From Acidobacteriota bacterium (GTDB lineage Bacteria; Acidobacteriota; Blastocatellia; UBA7656), in NCBI GenBank assembly GCA_016201275.1, contig JACQDB010000158.1, positions 1 to 63,890 on the forward strand: a stretch of 63,890 nucleotides of DNA, read 5' to 3'. Position 1 is the first letter of the stretch, and each line of letters starts with the position of its first letter. The notes beneath the pieces were generated by a model. The model ran no database searches. It was given only the letters and a program-made list of their open reading frames with translations, and was not told the DNA's origin. This document shows positions 3,735-39,301 of this stretch, in pieces. The position numbers and the translations under genes were made by a program.

Positions 3735-4745
3735 ATGAAGACAACGCTGCTGCAAATCAACGCCGAGCAACCGCAGGCGGATTTCATCGCTCAAGCTGCC
3801 GCCATTATTCGGCGCGGCGGCTTGGTGGCTTTCCCTACGGAAACAGTTTATGGGCTGGGTGCGGACGCCATGAACGAAGCGGCGGTGCAGAAAATTTTTC
3901 AAGCCAAGGGCAGACCATCCGACAATCCGCTCATCGTTCATGTGAGTTCGCAGGCGATGCTCCATCGCGTAGCGAAAGAGATCAGCGCCAAGGCCGAAGC
4001 CTTGATGGAAAAATTCTGGCCGGGGCCTTTGACCCTGGTGTTGCAGAGAAGGGAAGCGGTCGCGCCGACGGTTTCCGCCGGACTCCACACCGTAGCGGTG
4101 CGAATGCCGCATCATAAAATCGCTCTGGCCTTGCTGGAACAAGCAGCTACGCCGATTGCTGCGCCTAGCGCCAACACGTCTAGCAGGCCGAGTCCAACTA
4201 CGGCGGCGCACGTACTGGAAGATTTGCACGGGCGCATAGAGATGATTCTGGATGGCGGGCCAACCAACATCGGCATCGAATCAACCGTGCTAGATGTGAC
4301 AGGAGATGTGCCGGTGATGCTGCGCCCGGGTTGGGTGACGCCAGAGCTGCTTGCTGAAATAGTCGGCGACGTGCAACAGGCGATGGCCATTGATGAATTG
4401 AAACGCTCGCCCGGCACGCGCTATCGTCACTACAGCCCACGCGCTCGCGTCGTCTTACTAGAAAACGCTGCGCCGGAATTGCTACAGCAGACCTGTGTTG
4501 AGTTATTGAAAAATGAACGAGTCGGATTAATCAGCAAAACCCCCGTCTTTATTGATGATTTTCGCTTCACGGCGATTCTGCTCGCAGACAGCGCCGCCGA
4601 CTATGCGCGGCGCATTTATAGCGCCATGCGCGAGTTGGATGAAAACCAAGCCGCAGTGATTGTCATCGAAGGCATCAACGCGACGGGCGTAGGCGCGGCG
4701 GTGATGGACCGTTTGCGCCGCGCTGCTTCGACGATTCATTCGTGA
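3735..4745 (+). CDS. L-threonylcarbamoyladenylate synthase, Sua5 type
   Basis: This enzyme makes threonylcarbamoyl-AMP from threonine, bicarbonate and ATP, the first step of t6A37 modification of tRNAs that read ANN codons. The YrdC domain fills roughly residues 15-200, with FPTETVYGLGADA, KGRPSDNPLIVHV, WPGPLTLVL and APSANTSSRPSPT visible. The linker SPGTRYRHYSPRA and the C-terminal Sua5 domain make it the long Sua5/YwlC form, about 336 residues, and not the short TsaC form. The start is ATG at 3735, directly after an in-frame GTG. It follows thrS, so two threonine-using translation enzymes are neighbours. Confidence 0.93.
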   Translation: MKTTLLQINAEQPQADFIAQAAAIIRRGGLVAFPTETVYGLGADAMNEAAVQKIFQAKGRPSDNPLIVHVSSQAMLHRVAKEISAKAEALMEKFWPGPLTLVLQRREAVAPTVSAGLHTVAVRMPHHKIALALLEQAATPIAAPSANTSSRPSPTTAAHVLEDLHGRIEMILDGGPTNIGIESTVLDVTGDVPVMLRPGWVTPELLAEIVGDVQQAMAIDELKRSPGTRYRHYSPRARVVLLENAAPELLQQTCVELLKNERVGLISKTPVFIDDFRFTAILLADSAADYARRIYSAMRELDENQAAVIVIEGINATGVGAAVMDRLRRAASTIHS

Positions 4746-26670: not shown

Positions 26671-27047
26671 CTGCGTCAATACGATAGCGAAACCGGCGAA
26701 TGATTCACCCTACAGAGCGAGGTTCAACGAGTTGAAGACCGGGAAACTCCCTCTCAGCAAAGGCACGCCGTATATGCTGATGTCCACTTTGTGGTTTACG
26801 GTGAGGCAAGCCTGTAGTAAGAAACTGCGCCACATCCCTTTGCTGGGAATCGTTTTCTTTGGGTGCTTCATCTCGATGCTGCTCTACTTGATCGTGTAAA
26901 GGAACTTTTTTCCGCATCAACCCCGTAGCGATTTTCTTTCCGACGCTGGCAAATCTTCCCACAAGCGATTACTTGCACAAAGGCTTTCGCATCAAGTAGA
27001 GTTTGTTGGCCAACGGATGAAAGACTCCTGTCAATGGTCGAATCATT
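26671..27047. other. Gap of about 380 bases without a convincing gene
   Basis: A rightward frame (26648-26899) has a hydrophobic C-terminus, but it overlaps the MFS gene and has no ribosome binding site, so I do not call it. No repeat or terminator was found. Confidence 0.4.
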
Positions 27048-28541
27048 ATGCTGAAATCACTCAAATTCGCAATCGTTATTCTGGCTATCTCCCTGTTTGT
27101 CGGTTTGTCGTTGTCCCGCCAGACCGTTGCCCACACGGCTCAACAAGTGCATCGTTCTGAAATCATCGGCATGGGCGCTTCTATGAATGAACGGCTGGGC
27201 GCTGACGACCACCCGGCTTTCGTCGTTCATTTCACCGGCGAACTGCACGGCAGTCTGGAGACCTGTGGCTGAAAAGCCCCCGGTTTCGGGGGCTTGGCGC
27301 GGCGCGTCAATTACATCAAAGCATTCAAAGCAAAATTCGGCGGCGTTCCGACGCTGCTTGTGGATAGCGGCAATTTGTTCGCCGAACAACGCACCAAACA
27401 CGGCGACACACGGCTTGATGGCGTGATGAAAAACGAGAGCCTGTTAAAAGCCTATGACCAGTTTCGCGTAGATGTAGCGAATCTGGCAGCCAGCGATATG
27501 GATTATCTGGCTCCCTTGCTACAGTCATCAGCGTTCGCCAAACGCAGTGAAGCGCAGCCGATTTTCAAACGACTGGTGTCGGCTAACTTGGTTGCGGAAG
27601 CGCCCGATGCCGTGAAACTCCCGGCCTTTTTGCTTCGTGAAGTGCCGCTTGCTCATTCCGCAAAAGCGGTTCGTGTAGCCTTCGTCGGCATCGCCGACGC
27701 CAGCAGTCCGATGATGGCAACGGGCGTTAAAATTGCCGATCCCATCGAGACCGCGAAGCGAGTGTTGCCCGAAGCCCGTCGCAATGCCGATGTCGTCATT
27801 GTGCTGGCGCGGGTGCGAACCGATATGGCGGCGCGCCTTGCAAAAGAGGTTCCCGGCATCAATGTCATCATTGCAGGGAATGGCGAAATGTTTATGCCGT
27901 CTTTCAAGATCGGCGACACCTTGATTACCTTCACGCCGTTTGAATCGCGCTTTGTCGGCGAACTGCGGTTTTATCAAGCCGCGCCGGGCGGGTACACCTT
28001 TCGGGATCGCTTCATCTCTTTGGACGAAGGCGTAAGCGATGATCCGGGCGCTGTGCAGATGACCAAAGAGGCCAAAGAGGCCAAAGAGAATGCCTATAAA
28101 AACGCTCAGAAGCTGTTGACCGATTGGCTGGGCAACGCCAGCGTGTTGTCCGACTGGAAATCTATTGTGGCGCAGGCAAAACCTGGCGCGGCTCCCGAAT
28201 ACATCTCCAGCGGGGCGTGCGCGCAATGTCATACCGATCAATATGTCAAATGGGCAAACAGTCAGCACGCCCGCGCTTCCGATGTGCTTTCCGCTCATAA
28301 AGATGATTTTGAAGAAGGCTGTATGCAATGCCATGCGACCGGATCACGCCCCGGCGCATTGCCGAAACTGGCCACCGTGCAGTGCGAACAATGTCACGGT
28401 GCAGGCAGTCAACACGCTGCCAAACCGGCGCAAGGTTACGGCAAAATCAGCGATATGAAAGCGGCCTGCGCGAGTTGCCACACGCCGCAAACCAGCCCGA
28501 ACTTTGATTATCAAGCCGCCTGGTTGCGGATGAAACATTAG
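27048..28541 (+). CDS. Candidate selenoprotein: tetraheme cytochrome c with UshA-like N-terminal domain and in-frame UGA at codon 75
   Basis: Two reading frames in the same phase, 27048-27272 and from 27273 on, join if UGA 27270-27272 is read through, giving 497 residues. A signal peptide covers about 1-30. The next part resembles the N-terminus of 5'-nucleotidase/UshA-like proteins: HFTGELHGSLETCG, then the UGA, then KAPGFGGLARRVNYIKAF and LLVDSGNLFAEQ. The usual metal-binding residues are altered. Heme c motifs CxxCH are at residues 391, 425, 446 and 474, as in cytochrome c554-like proteins. Homologues as I know them have CGC where this has CG-UGA, so selenocysteine fits. Two separate genes or a nonsense mutation are alternatives. 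It should be periplasmic. Confidence 0.8.
27270..27296 (+). promoter_or_regulatory. Hairpin directly after the in-frame UGA, possible bacterial SECIS
   Basis: AAGCCCCC (27274-27281) and GGGGGCTT (27288-27295) form a perfect 8-bp stem closed by the loop GGTTTC, which carries the GGU-type loop bases seen in bacterial SECIS elements. Nine bases separate the UGA from the loop, fewer than in E. coli fdhF, so SelB binding needs testing. Confidence 0.5.
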
Positions 28542-28655
28542 CGTAGTTTGCGTTTATTGTACGGCGCAAAGGTTCAATAAACTTCCGTTTGTTGTGAATG
28601 CCAACAGCGCCAAACTGAAGTTTACCGCACCCTCAATGGCAAGCTGCTCTACGAG

Positions 28656-30065
28656 CTAGAAGTTTGCTTCGCGCTGATTCATCCACTTTGCATAAGCGAA
28701 AAGCAAACCGCCCACCACGCCCCAAACCAACACCAACTCGATGCTGGTCAAGCTATGCTCGGCGAGGCGTTGAGGAAAACTTGAACCTCGAATCGTCTGC
28801 ATATCTTGCGTCACCTGCACGAGGATTAGTCCGCCCATTGCCACCAACGATAAAGCCGCTGCCGCTCGCTGCAACCATACGGGCATGGTTATGGAGATTT
28901 GCTCGTACAGCTTCGCGTTTTTTCGCGGCAACAAAAGAAAAATCAAACTGTGCAAGGCGTACAGAATCACCAGCGCAAAGACCGCTATGTTGAGCGCCAA
29001 GCCGACCTGGCCGCTGATGAGTAGAATCACCGCCGCCGCCAGCGTGATGGTCAAGCCAACAATCGGCGTCCCTGTGCGTTCGTTGACCGCGCCCAGCCAG
29101 CGCGGAGCCAAGTTATCTTTGGCCAGAATAATCACCAGTCTAGACGGCACCAGCATCGTCGAATTCAGCGATGTGGTCAGCGCCATAATCGCGCCAAAGG
29201 TCACAAACAGCGCCGCTCCCGCAGGCAGATAAACCGCCGCTACTTCCGCCATCGGCGCGTTGCTCGACTGCAAGCGTGCGCCCGGCAACACGCCAAACGC
29301 CACCACTGACATCAGTATGAAAACGGCTGCTGCTGCGCCTATGCCTTTTAAAAAAACTTTGGGCAATCGGCGCGTGCTGTCTTTGACTTCACCGGCGGTC
29401 TGCGCCAAGGATTCAAAGCCCGCATAAGAAAAAAACAGCGGCACCAGACTCGCCGCAAACCCGCCGCCGCCGTGACTGATGAATGGTTGATAGTTCGCCG
29501 CGTGAATGGCAAACAAGCCCGGCACAATTAACACGATGAGCGCCAAGCCTAAAAGCGCGCACATCGTCACCTGCAAACGCCCGAACCAACGCACGCCTAT
29601 GCTGTGAATGAGGAAGAAAAACAGCAGCGAAATCAGTGCCAGAGGCAAACGAAAGGTCTCGGCGCGCAAGCGCCCTCCGGCAAATTCCAAAAGGTAATCG
29701 GCCAGCGCATTGGCCAGATACGCCTCCGCGCCGAGGTAGGAAATAATCTTGAGCCAAGCGCCGACGAAGGCCAAACTGTAGCCGTCAAGGGTGCGCGAAA
29801 TGTGAGTGTATTCGCCGCCGGGTTCGCGTCCGAGCGGCGTCGAAAGAAATGCCGCATACGGCACCGAGGTGGCCAGTATGACCGGCAACAACACGATGTA
29901 ACCGAGGATGACGCTGGGCCCAGTGAGCGACCAAGCGCGCGAAGTCACCGTGAAGATGCCTGCGCCGATTAATATTCCCAGCAACGCCGCGTAAGATTCG
30001 AGCGTGCCTAAATCGCGGCGCAGACGATTGACGATTGCGCCGTCGCCGCCCTCATGATTTTTCAT
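28656..30065 (-). CDS. APC family amino acid permease
   Basis: The 469-residue protein has about 12 membrane segments. LGILIGAGIFTVTSRAW near residue 35 is the TM1 helix break typical of the amino acid-polyamine-organocation superfamily, and YIVLLPVILATSVPYAAF, FFSYAGFESLAQTAGEVKD and ALTTSLNSTMLVPSRL are other family blocks. It would import an amino acid or amine by proton or sodium symport, or exchange it. Its ATG overlaps the stop of the NTF2-like gene upstream, so both are one unit. Confidence 0.9.
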   Translation of the reverse strand: MKNHEGGDGAIVNRLRRDLGTLESYAALLGILIGAGIFTVTSRAWSLTGPSVILGYIVLLPVILATSVPYAAFLSTPLGREPGGEYTHISRTLDGYSLAFVGAWLKIISYLGAEAYLANALADYLLEFAGGRLRAETFRLPLALISLLFFFLIHSIGVRWFGRLQVTMCALLGLALIVLIVPGLFAIHAANYQPFISHGGGGFAASLVPLFFSYAGFESLAQTAGEVKDSTRRLPKVFLKGIGAAAAVFILMSVVAFGVLPGARLQSSNAPMAEVAAVYLPAGAALFVTFGAIMALTTSLNSTMLVPSRLVIILAKDNLAPRWLGAVNERTGTPIVGLTITLAAAVILLISGQVGLALNIAVFALVILYALHSLIFLLLPRKNAKLYEQISITMPVWLQRAAAALSLVAMGGLILVQVTQDMQTIRGSSFPQRLAEHSLTSIELVLVWGVVGGLLFAYAKWMNQREANF

Positions 30066-36922: not shown

Positions 36923-37585
36923 CTATTGCTTCTCGTCGTCTTGGACTTTATAGGTGACGTTGGGAATCATCTCGACATCTTCTTTCAAGGTGATGCGTCC
37001 GGCCATTTTCTTCTGCACTTTTTCGGTCGGCACAAACATCACCTGGCTATCCACCAGAGTTTCATTGGGGCGATAACCCATACCGAACTCTTTCAACTCC
37101 GGGCGCTTCATCAGGCGCACCAAATCCCACATGGTTTCGCCACGCGAGAAGGCGGTGATTTCGGTTTCGCGGCTCATGATGATGGCCTCTTCCGGGCAGG
37201 CATCCACACAGAAGCCGCAGAACACGCAGCGCAGCATATCTATCTCGAAGCGCGCCGCCTGTTTTTCGATGTGCGGATCGGGATGCTCTTTCGGCTCGAT
37301 GTAGATGCAATCGGCAGGGCAGGCCGTAGCGCACATATAACAGGCGACGCAGCGTGGCGTACCGTCTTCACGCGCCGTCAAGATGTGCGCGCCACGATAG
37401 CGGTCGGAATACGAGCGCCGCTCTTCGGGATAATTGATAGTCGGCGACACTTGGCCGGTGAGGTTTTGCACCATGCGCGACATGGTTAATTTCATTCCCG
37501 ACAGCGGCGAGAAAATCTCTTTGACCAGAGAATTCTCTCGCTCGGCGATCTCCGATACGTTGATGGTCTTGGCGATTTTTTTCAT
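36923..37585 (-). CDS. nuoI: NADH-quinone oxidoreductase subunit I
   Basis: NuoI carries clusters N6a and N6b and passes electrons to NuoB in complex I. Both motifs are present: CVACYMCATACPADC near residue 85 and CVFCGFCVDACPEEAI near 125. The N-terminus has the conserved SGMKLTMSRMVQNLTG and NYPEERRSYSDRYRGAH blocks. At 220 residues it is slightly longer than the E. coli subunit (180) because of its C-terminal tail. A 280-base gap follows before the ferredoxins; I see no gene in it. Confidence 0.95.
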   Translation of the reverse strand: MKKIAKTINVSEIAERENSLVKEIFSPLSGMKLTMSRMVQNLTGQVSPTINYPEERRSYSDRYRGAHILTAREDGTPRCVACYMCATACPADCIYIEPKEHPDPHIEKQAARFEIDMLRCVFCGFCVDACPEEAIIMSRETEITAFSRGETMWDLVRLMKRPELKEFGMGYRPNETLVDSQVMFVPTEKVQKKMAGRITLKEDVEMIPNVTYKVQDDEKQ

Positions 37586-37591
37586 TTTACC

Positions 37592-37676
37592 TAGTCCCTG
37601 GTCCTTAGTCCTTAGTCCTTAGTCCAAGCTGAGGCAATTTTATCAATCTCAACTAAGGACTAAGGACCAGGGACTA
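37592..37676. repeat. Perfect 25-bp inverted repeat of TTAGTCC heptamers
   Basis: The arms 37592-37616 and 37652-37676 are perfect complements, built from CCTTAGTCCTTAGT units. It fills the nuoG-nuoI gap. A related element is at 50887-51001. Confidence 0.9.
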
Positions 37677-37684
37677 AGGACTGT

Positions 37685-39301
37685 TTATGCGGTTACCAAT
37701 GCACCGGGCAGCCGTGTCTGTTCAAGGGCGATGCCTTGATAAGCTGGAATCGTTTCGCTCATCCCGGCAAACACCTCTGCTGCCGACAGCCACAGGCGCT
37801 TTGACCCGGAAGTTTCCAGCAGCATAGCGAAGGCTTCCCACAACGGCAGGGCATCGCCTTTCGGACGGATGGCGCGCCCGATTTTCTGCACGCGCCCCTG
37901 ATAATTCGTATAAGTGCCTTCTTCTTCCGACCACGCGGTGACCGGCAACACCACATTCGCGTCTTTGAGCCAAGTGGTTTTGTGCGTCGTGAAGACCACG
38001 GAATATTGCAGGGCGTTGATTAACTCTGCGACTTTCGCTTCGATTTGTTCGTCGCCATCGCGGCGCACCAGCGGCTTGAACCAGATTATCACTCCGGCTT
38101 TCAAACGTCCGTCACGCGCTGCGGCCAGCGCCCCGTCCAAGCCGTTTAGGTCACGGCTCATCAAATCCAATTTTATTGCGCCCATCGAATTTGGTCGCTT
38201 GTCGGTGTGGCGCAAAATGTCATCCTCTTTTTCCGTCACCTTCTGATCTTCGTGATCCAGACGAAATTCAAGCTGGGCAGTGCCGATCTGTTCCTTGAGA
38301 TATTCTTTGAAGAGGAACAAGGCTTCGTTGGTGGCCGAGGCCGAAGCCAGGCCGAGGATGGCGTTAGCACCAAAGGCTTGGCGGCAGTCTTTCAAATTCA
38401 CATCAATGGCGCGCAAAGCGTCCGACCATTTCACCGGAGCCTGCATACCGTCTTCGCCTTTGACCATAGGGCGATGCAATCGTTCGCCGTTTTCCAGTTC
38501 GTGAAAACTCAAACGGCCTTCATCGCACAGCCAACTCTTGTTGACTTCAATATTGCGGCGCGGCAACAGGCGGAATAGATTGCCATCACGATGATCTACG
38601 CGCACATTGCATCCGGTAGAACAACCGCCGCACACCGAATCGGTGCTGTTCAAAAACCACACGCGGCATTTGAAACGGAAATCGCGGGAAGTCAAAGCGC
38701 CGACCGGACAAATATCCACGACGTTGCCGGAGTACGGATTATCCAGCGGACGGTCGTCAATCGTGCCGATGACGGTGTGATCGCCGCGCCCGAAAAATTG
38801 CATCTCGCCGGTTCCCGTGACGTGATCGAAAAAGCGTATGCAGCGCGAACACAACACGCAACGCTCTTGATCGAGTACGACCATCTCGCCCAGGTCAACG
38901 ACTTTGCGCTTATGGACTTTCATATCCATAGCGATTTCGCTGGTGTGCAGGCCATAGACCATGTAGTAATCCTGCAAGCGGCACTCGCCCGCCTGATCGC
39001 ACACCGGGCAATCCACCGGATGATTGATGAGCAGAAATTCCAGCACCCCGCGCACCGCCATCTTGACGCGCTCGTTGTTGGTCGTGACCTTCATTCCTTC
39101 GCCGCACACGGTGGTGCAGGAAGGCGTCAGTTTCGGCATCTTCTCGACTTCGACCAGACACATACGGCAGTTGCCATCAATCGGCAAATCCGGGTGATAG
39201 CAATAATGCGGGATGTCTAAGCCGTGTTCGAGGGCGGCTTGAATGACGGTCTGCCCGTCTTTGGCTTCAATCTCTAAATCGTCAATGGTTATCTTTGGCA
39301 T
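37685..39301 (-). CDS. nuoG: NADH-quinone oxidoreductase subunit G, short form
   Basis: The 538-residue subunit holds the N-terminal [2Fe-2S] site (CYHPDLPIDGNCRMC and a later Cys), the His-Cys site HPVDCPVCDQAGEC, the CVLCSRCIRF / DICPVGAL [4Fe-4S] site, and the N7 motif CGGCSTGC with a later Cys in KSWLCDEG. The molybdopterin-like C-terminal domain is much shorter than in E. coli (908 residues) or Thermus (783). It still has VVLPVTAWSEEEGTYTNYQG. It transfers electrons in the peripheral arm. Confidence 0.93.
   Translation of the reverse strand: MPKITIDDLEIEAKDGQTVIQAALEHGLDIPHYCYHPDLPIDGNCRMCLVEVEKMPKLTPSCTTVCGEGMKVTTNNERVKMAVRGVLEFLLINHPVDCPVCDQAGECRLQDYYMVYGLHTSEIAMDMKVHKRKVVDLGEMVVLDQERCVLCSRCIRFFDHVTGTGEMQFFGRGDHTVIGTIDDRPLDNPYSGNVVDICPVGALTSRDFRFKCRVWFLNSTDSVCGGCSTGCNVRVDHRDGNLFRLLPRRNIEVNKSWLCDEGRLSFHELENGERLHRPMVKGEDGMQAPVKWSDALRAIDVNLKDCRQAFGANAILGLASASATNEALFLFKEYLKEQIGTAQLEFRLDHEDQKVTEKEDDILRHTDKRPNSMGAIKLDLMSRDLNGLDGALAAARDGRLKAGVIIWFKPLVRRDGDEQIEAKVAELINALQYSVVFTTHKTTWLKDANVVLPVTAWSEEEGTYTNYQGRVQKIGRAIRPKGDALPLWEAFAMLLETSGSKRLWLSAAEVFAGMSETIPAYQGIALEQTRLPGALVTA

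Follow-up and report, generated by a model that had tools for sequence, protein, structure and literature searches.

Gene Organization and the In-Frame UGA Codon

The window analyzed in this work is a 63,890-nucleotide stretch of DNA from an Acidobacteriota genome (contig JACQDB010000158.1 of assembly GCA_016201275.1). It carries on the plus strand a gene for a predicted exported heme protein, the reading frame of which is interrupted once, by a UGA codon. The gene and the two codons central to its interpretation are located as follows.

27048..28541, plus strand: whole predicted selenoprotein gene, 497 residues with Sec75 (start ATG at 27048, stop TAG at 28539–28541)
27264..27266, plus strand: Cys73 codon TGT, partner in the C-G-U motif (Cys in 118/118 aligned motif-bearing rows)
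27270..27272, plus strand: UGA codon predicted to be read as selenocysteine 75 (Sec/Cys exchange in relatives; Sec machinery in the genome)

As stated in the first-pass annotation of the window, frames 27048–27272 and 27273–28541 are in the same phase and are split only by the UGA at codon 75. This codon, found in the context T-C-G-UGA-K, is the only in-frame UGA of 27048–28541. Standard annotation divides the gene into a 74-residue piece and an ORF starting at TTG 27294. Orthologues could be aligned along residues 1–497 or 3–497 of the window protein. For four of them, identity reached 17–22 of 34 residues before the UGA and between 181/415 and 199/421 after it, and third codon positions were the most divergent ones on both sides, which is the pattern of a coding gene. 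Since identity and the third-position excess continue across the UGA in these four orthologues, and since the corresponding codon is UGA in other genomes as well, the rest having Cys there, the presence of this codon goes beyond chance.

Exchange of Selenocysteine and Cysteine Among Relatives

All 8 genomes of the same order showed a match, as did 56 of the 297 sampled genomes of the phylum at E 1e-20 or better. The scan of named genomes gave at least 304 relatives; 80 were kept and 77 were readable N-terminally, 11 of these with UGA. Homologues of the Cys form came, for example, from the culturable Haloferula luteola and Sorangium cellulosum. A first scan of genome contigs with the single window protein as the query returned no confirmed relative. 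Before the counts were made, we dropped L040 (no match), L041 (same stretch as L038), L150 (unreadable spacing) and L136, L154, and L155 (without the N-terminal domain), while the motif-free L039, L042, and L043 were set aside as controls.

The motif-bearing rows (n = 125, including the window and the duplicate pair L025/L091) comprised 42 with UGA and 83 with TGC or TGT at the codon 75 site; L025, the copy in G006, is at zero distance from L091 of Blastocatellia bacterium nzgw74. By this kinship, the host is probably an Acidobacteriota of class Blastocatellia. This agrees with the earlier proposal of a selenoprotein with Sec75 where relatives have Cys: comparison of homologues at residue 75 revealed Sec/Cys exchange, and not relatives with a normal stop. 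On a quick tree of 124 rows, from which L165 was left out, at least 13 changes of the Sec/Cys state were needed, a minimum valid for that tree alone (LG+G4, SH-aLRT support only, 36 of 121 inner branches below 80). The window protein belongs to a clade of seven rows (SH-aLRT 100), six with UGA and one (L022) with Cys.

Could the UGA be a true stop, leaving a pseudogene or two pieces, with translation of the second beginning anew at TTG 27294? Standard annotation reads the locus in this manner, and UGA is a usual stop in the host genome; the triplet at 4743–4745, cited in the first-pass annotation as a normal stop in the window, is indeed TGA. However, 41 other rows of the 125 (one of them a duplicate) have UGA at this codon too, the frame is otherwise intact with selective constraint on both sides of the UGA, and the Sec machinery of the host is complete (see below). 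Moreover, a restart at TTG 27294 would fall inside the hairpin 27294–27310 described below and would cut off the C-G-U motif. A true stop can be given next to no weight. An assembly or sequencing error for TGC, TGT, or TGG is hardly conceivable: the genome is a draft of 162 contigs (6.84 Mb), but the same UGA occurs independently in 6 of the 7 members of the window clade and in L029, a paralogue from the same genome.

Three related frames of more than 900 residues (L104, L109, and L121), found in Gemmatimonadota and in a bin labelled Latescibacterota, contain the UshA-like and heme parts and an extra portion. L104 and L109 are nearly identical despite different phylum labels, so one of the bins may be mislabelled.

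Sec-Decoding Machinery of the Host Genome

The host genome encodes a tRNA-Sec (66 bits, above the cut-off; reported by ARAGORN as tRNA-SeC with anticodon tca), together with selA (539.6 bits), selB (364 bits), and selD (356.5 bits), each above its own cut-off. All four components that the first-pass annotation had named for a genome search are thus present, and this gene content indicates that the organism decodes UGA as Sec. The host selD (G000 C76, L088) has an in-frame UGA of its own, in the context SCAGUAAK, and is itself a selenoprotein gene; the UGA is followed by a SECIS-like 7-bp hairpin with a 3-nt loop GTT starting 33 nt past it. FdhA was also checked, and the host genome gave no match above the cut-off, the best one (574 bits) having no inner stop. 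The Sec genes seen in this genome are therefore those of UshA-like proteins and of SelD.

Among the 297 sampled Acidobacteriota genomes, selB was above the cut-off in 194, Cys-only carriers included. In each of the 20 genomes of this sample that carry a UGA form, selB was matched at E 1e-50 or better, with 3.1e-55 in G291 (75% complete) as the weakest value, a level at which other translation factors may match as well. The presence of selB was considered as a discriminator of Sec and Cys forms and rejected as uninformative, because Cys-only genomes also carry selB.

Taken together, these comparisons of sequence and gene content make it nearly certain that UGA 27270–27272 codes for selenocysteine in a predicted exported heme protein. 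The status of the gene as a predicted selenoprotein gene is confirmed up to the limit of computation.

Two Hairpins Downstream of the UGA

The region following the UGA can form two hairpins.

27274..27295, plus strand: hairpin of the first-pass annotation, stable (−15 to −17 kcal/mol), not the SECIS (no covariation over 31 UGA rows)
27294..27310, plus strand: predicted SECIS hairpin, 7-bp stem with apical loop GGC at 27301–27303, 28 nt after the UGA (pairing, covariation)

The upstream structure was described earlier as a perfect 8-bp stem with loop GGTTTC, one base past the UGA, and is present as such: bases 2–9 after the UGA pair with bases 16–23 (27274–27281 with 27288–27295), and one further G-C pair is possible. 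Folding of the 61 nt from the UGA on was more favourable than that of any of 200 dinucleotide shuffles (z −3.64), but this stretch includes the second hairpin too. The reading of the upstream hairpin as a divergent SECIS did not stand up to comparison. Over 31 UGA rows, 44.0% of the cells of this hairpin pair, which is below the shuffle mean (415 of 500 shuffles were as high) and no better than slid versions. Its core also occurs in the Cys relatives L049 and L056. The loop begins 9–10 nt after the UGA, inside the ribosome footprint, vs. the published bSECIS spacing of 16–37 nt, and the hairpin drops out of the fold when the first 9–15 nt are made unavailable, as they would be in a ribosome. 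The possibility that Sec75 is right but that the hairpin 27274–27295, alone or with the second one, serves as the SECIS draws on its perfect pairing and high stability in the window and on a six-pair core found in 8 of 13 UGA rows of family f1, although the window itself does not have all six pairs in that register. Given the missing covariation, the core shared with Cys rows, and the position of the loop, we regard it as highly improbable.

For bacterial SECIS elements, the legend of Fig. 2 in PMC13188914 gives a spacing of 16–37 nt, a loop of 3–9 nt, and a G in the first two loop positions; the stem of that model is 4–16 bp long with a free energy at or below −7.5 kcal/mol. The hairpin 27294–27310 has this geometry, with a spacer of 28 nt, the 3-nt loop GGC, and a stem of 7 bp. 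Its energy is −6.9 kcal/mol for the 17 nt alone vs. −7.5 in the model, and −8.4 kcal/mol for the 57-nt window fold with flanking pairs and the first 12–15 nt blocked. Blocking the first 9–15 nt leaves a stem 22–28/32–37 or 38 in the window fold. The much stabler upstream hairpin overlaps this one by two bases.

The hairpin 27294–27310 shows covariation. Over 31 distinct UGA rows (30 from Acidobacteriota and one from Myxococcales), 217 of 217 cells were paired, and slid versions gave 24.4–43.3%. Two-sided changes were found in 4 of the 7 pairs, a less remarkable count that 18 of 500 shuffles reached, and in 26 cells vs. 8.4 in shuffles; the covariation score was 0.490 vs. 0.227, with 0 of 500 shuffles as high. 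Alignment A3 excluded L091, a duplicate of L025, and L032, whose register is shifted. All 7 pairs in the register of the window were present in 32 of 42 UGA rows and in 0 of 62 Cys rows. The 10 UGA rows lacking the hairpin in this register are L032, shifted by one codon, and nine from other phyla. When searched by the position of GG, 3 of the 83 Cys rows (L034, L035, and L036) keep the hairpin, with the register shifted by 3.

The bases of the hairpin also code for LARRVN, and synonymous recodings reach the 7 pairs of the window in 7.0% of trials. UGA rows had a mean of 5.93 pairs observed vs. 4.57 expected, and Cys rows 3.58 vs. 3.40; taken singly, only 9 of the 42 UGA rows fell below 5%. This shows that the protein sequence itself favours pairing and that one row alone, the window included, proves little.

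With the covariation and with spacer, loop, and stem fitting the published model, the SECIS appears to be an ordinary one, located one hairpin further on than supposed, and not divergent. From the aligned sequences we consider it very likely that the hairpin 27294–27310 is the working SECIS. SelB and tRNA-Sec would then read UGA 27270–27272 as Sec under the direction of this hairpin, which would lie beyond the stretch of mRNA covered by a ribosome that has the UGA in its decoding site. The analysis thereby corrects the SECIS position and supplies a covarying model. A search of 26900–28700 against Rfam gave nothing above the gathering scores.

The nine UGA rows outside Acidobacteriota without a hairpin at nt 22–38 are L098, L103, L119, L122, L127, L129, L148, L149, and L167. 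For these, a fixed register at nt 13–29 gave a mixed result, with 6/6 pairs in 2 rows and 5 pairs in another. When the first 9 nt were made unavailable, the folds had a loop near nt 18–24 in 7 of the 9, the exceptions being L098 and L122; this is our own post hoc reading of the folds. Several of the UGA forms from other phyla show a hairpin about ten bases nearer to the UGA, with a loop similar to GGTCT. This points to independent Sec gains or to a shift of the SECIS.

Three individual cases were observed among the relatives. L029 (G000 C96:20066–21430), outside the window, is a second Sec form in the same genome and has the same hairpin. L022 (G005), the sole Cys orthologue of the window clade, carries TGT, and its hairpin has decayed to 5/7 pairs with the loop AAC; it represents a natural control. 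L032–L036 form a heme-less subgroup with C-D/N-C, in which L032 (G007) has C-D-U by UGA; the perfect hairpins of the CDC/CNC forms L034, L035, and L036 are perhaps relics of a lost Sec.

Domain Organization and Loss of Metal Ligands

The protein is predicted to consist of a signal peptide-like segment, an UshA-like domain, and a C-terminal tetraheme domain.

27048..27131, plus strand: hydrophobic signal peptide-like segment, residues 1–28 (sequence; helix 2–27 in the predicted model)
27207..28103, plus strand: UshA/5′-nucleotidase/SoxB-like domain, approximately residues 54–352 (profile matches to 5′-nucleotidases; model vs. 3gve_A)
28197..28538, plus strand: tetraheme cytochrome c554-type domain, approximately residues 384–497 (PF13435; profile match to PDB 1bvb)
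28218..28232, plus strand: heme motif 1, CAQCH, residues 391–395 (sequence)
28266..28268, plus strand: His407 (103/118 rows, 15 gaps)
28320..28334, plus strand: heme motif 2, CMQCH, residues 425–429 (sequence)
28383..28397, plus strand: heme motif 3, CEQCH, residues 446–450 (sequence)
28413..28415, plus strand: His456 (102/118 rows, 13 gaps)
28467..28481, plus strand: heme motif 4, CASCH, residues 474–478 (sequence)
28536..28538, plus strand: His497, the last residue, conserved (94/118 rows, 21 gaps)

The N-terminal signal peptide and the four CxxCH sites at the C-terminal end, both claimed in the first-pass annotation, were recovered at these positions, the former as a hydrophobic, signal-peptide-like N-terminus. 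Both features are in keeping with an exported protein of the electron-transfer type, as had been suggested. The heme domain matched PF13435 with 38.6 bits, passing the Pfam gathering score of 20.8. Judging from their conservation, His497, His407, and His456 are possible distal heme ligands.

The predicted structure had a pLDDT of 87.2 and a pTM of 0.85. Its top match by Foldseek was SoxB (2wdc, E 2.1e-18). Alignment of the model by VIA-align gave Z 28.6 with 2z1a (2.5 Å over 271 residues) and Z 28.4 with 2wdc (2.8 Å over 277), while model residues 54–352 aligned to 3gve_A with Z 25.9. We then examined the ligand set of the dinuclear metallophosphatases, which we take to be D41, H43, D84, N116, H117, H217, H252, and H254 (E. 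coli UshA numbering). The window protein keeps 1 of these 8 residues, H43, and the first ligand motif is half kept, as E-L-H. The motif-bearing relatives, 118 rows in a table made without L104, L109, L121, L113, L156, L161, L150, and L165, keep between 0 and 4, with N116 present in 1 row and H254 in 4. The motif-free controls, all from the same order (two stretches of the same genome and one of G001), keep 8, 7, and 8 of 8. Cys/Sec75, like Cys73, is present in 118/118 rows, which is partly by selection, as motif-free matches were set apart as controls. In the alignment, the C-G-U loop directly follows the old D-x-H metal motif. On the evidence of alignment and predicted model, the protein has a 5′-nucleotidase/SoxB fold in which the two-metal site is lost.

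Relation to Known Families

An UshA-like family with a CxU motif (COG0737), comprising 76 selenoproteins and 92 Cys homologues, is described in the accessible text of PLoS Genet 2008 e1000095 on the marine selenoproteome. It is listed in tables of the reviews PMC9312934 and PMC13188914, both of which also contain a second UshA-like family, NF049981. The UshA-like (seleno)protein family is thus already catalogued, heme part included, and is not new.

The closest curated model, NF041198 (UshA_like_PCGU), shares with the window protein the C-G-U/C motif, the Sec/Cys exchange, and the UshA-like plus tetraheme layout. It spans the heme part, profile positions 349–519 matching window residues 317–489. 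All 34 members of our first alignment matched NF041198 at E 1e-3 or better. The window protein scored 217.2 bits and the orthologue L017 209.4, both under the cut-off of 275; the cut-off was missed also by L091 (269.3), L055 (262.8), and L058 (267.4), and was passed by the own-genome paralogue L029 (279.7) and L047 (277.8). Four members from other phyla scored 334.7 to 657.2 bits. The SECIS position in the window differs from that of Desulfobacterota-type members. With 217.2 bits vs. 275, the window clade does not belong to NF041198 by the NCBI threshold; by its sequence, it is a diverged sister clade that remains inside a known kind. Because the clade does not reach the score required by the curated model, annotation errors in genes of this sort are possible in Acidobacteriota; here, a scan of raw sequence caught a selenoprotein gene that ordinary annotation cuts in two.

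Other systems resemble parts of the protein. NF049981 (family 2) is similar at the N-terminus, over window residues 60–161, but the window reached 33.8 bits vs. a cut-off of 140 and has CxU, while NF049981 has CxxU and its model of 262 positions is without a heme part. Like the window protein, ExtKL of Geobacter (NF040886) is a multiheme c-type cytochrome with Sec; the likeness is limited to the heme part (11.7 bits vs. a cut-off of 250), and the accessible text of PMC5877670 reports no UshA-like part. The thiosulfohydrolase SoxB and the 5′-nucleotidases UshA, CD73, and YfkN have the fold of residues ~54–352 in common with the window protein, which in contrast to them is without metal ligands, has gained the Sec/Cys pair, and has a heme domain where the nucleotidases carry their C-terminal domain. 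Cytochrome c554 (1bvb) corresponds by profile to the C-terminal heme domain, which in the window is fused to a pseudo-phosphatase domain.

Possible Function of the Cys-Gly-Sec Site

The explanation of the locus that we consider best overall, and very probable, is that of a selenoprotein with Sec75 and the SECIS at 27294–27310, in which a 5′-nucleotidase/SoxB-like domain that has lost its metals is joined to a tetraheme domain. As to the mechanism taken by itself, a redox-active CxU site with a heme relay is the reading toward which the sequence data lead us to lean slightly. The exported protein would connect the metal-less 5′-nucleotidase/SoxB-like domain to the cytochrome c554-type tetraheme domain, with the C-G-U loop placed where the phosphatase D-x-H motif and the following loop used to be. 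Cys73 and Sec75 would form a selenol/selenenylsulfide pair, reducing or oxidising a small periplasmic substrate, and the four hemes would pass electrons on. The loss of metal ligands, the retention of Cys73 and Cys/Sec75, and the fused hemes suggest that a redox centre has taken the position of the metal centre. As the fold is related to that of SoxB, a compound of sulfur or selenium is a reasonable first guess for the substrate. Counting against the redox reading, none of the 15 heme-less relatives has an ORF with two or more CxxCH within its locus (~1.5 kb on each side), so that hemes are not always at hand. The gene neighbours described below give no hint either.

Alternatively, the protein may still be a metal-dependent hydrolase (nucleotidase or thiosulfohydrolase) in which C-G-U newly serves to bind metal or substrate, the cytochrome being a mere partner. 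The fold match to 5′-nucleotidases and SoxB is compatible with such activity, and so are the half-kept E-L-H motif of the window and the relatives with up to 4 of the 8 ligands. Yet none of the 118 rows retains more than 4, N116 and H254 are almost absent, and the window retains H43 only; we find a hydrolase unlikely. It would be less likely still that the Cys/Sec pair binds or detoxifies a soft metal or metalloid (Hg, As, Te, or Se oxyanions) with electrons from the hemes. Soft ligands, Cys73 and Cys/Sec75, are invariant in the motif-bearing rows, and the multiheme selenoprotein ExtKL is proposed to act in selenite reduction (accessible text of PMC5877670), but ExtKL resembles the window protein in the heme part alone and no metal or metalloid resistance gene is found among the identified neighbours.

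Returning to the redox-active Cys73/Sec75 pair, the accessible text of PLoS Genet 2008 e1000095 sets the UshA-like proteins apart from redox families, counting them among the small number of major families that lack a redox motif based on Cys. Based on the loss of metal ligands, the kept Cys73–Sec75 pair, and the fused hemes, we argue that UshA-like selenoproteins may be redox proteins after all, and the question is now testable. Our literature searches, run mostly without subscription papers, found no functional test of an UshA-like selenoprotein and no account of the metal-ligand loss. More broadly, we put forward, at not quite even chances, that in a phosphatase fold the two-metal centre was replaced by a redox centre of Cys-Gly-Sec and a tetraheme domain was connected to it, which would have produced a widespread and unrecognised group of exported seleno-oxidoreductases. 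Sec would have been gained or lost repeatedly, with the SECIS loop 29–31 nt past the UGA in Acidobacteriota and roughly ten bases closer to it in other phyla, in line with separate Sec gains or a moved SECIS.

Gene neighbours of the window gene and of its paralogue gave no functional hint, and a search of a plasmid collection gave no match. An AMP-binding gene is common to 6 of the 7 window-clade regions, lying in the window on the strand opposite to the window gene; this looks like plain synteny. The other shared neighbours encode an alpha/beta hydrolase, a YacP-like protein, and a FecR protein, and DciA, ABC, LolA, and Maf are found near the paralogue. Elsewhere in the window, at 36923–39301 on the minus strand, frames resemble NuoI and NuoG of complex I by their sequence and weak Fdh-alpha matches, and appear ordinary.
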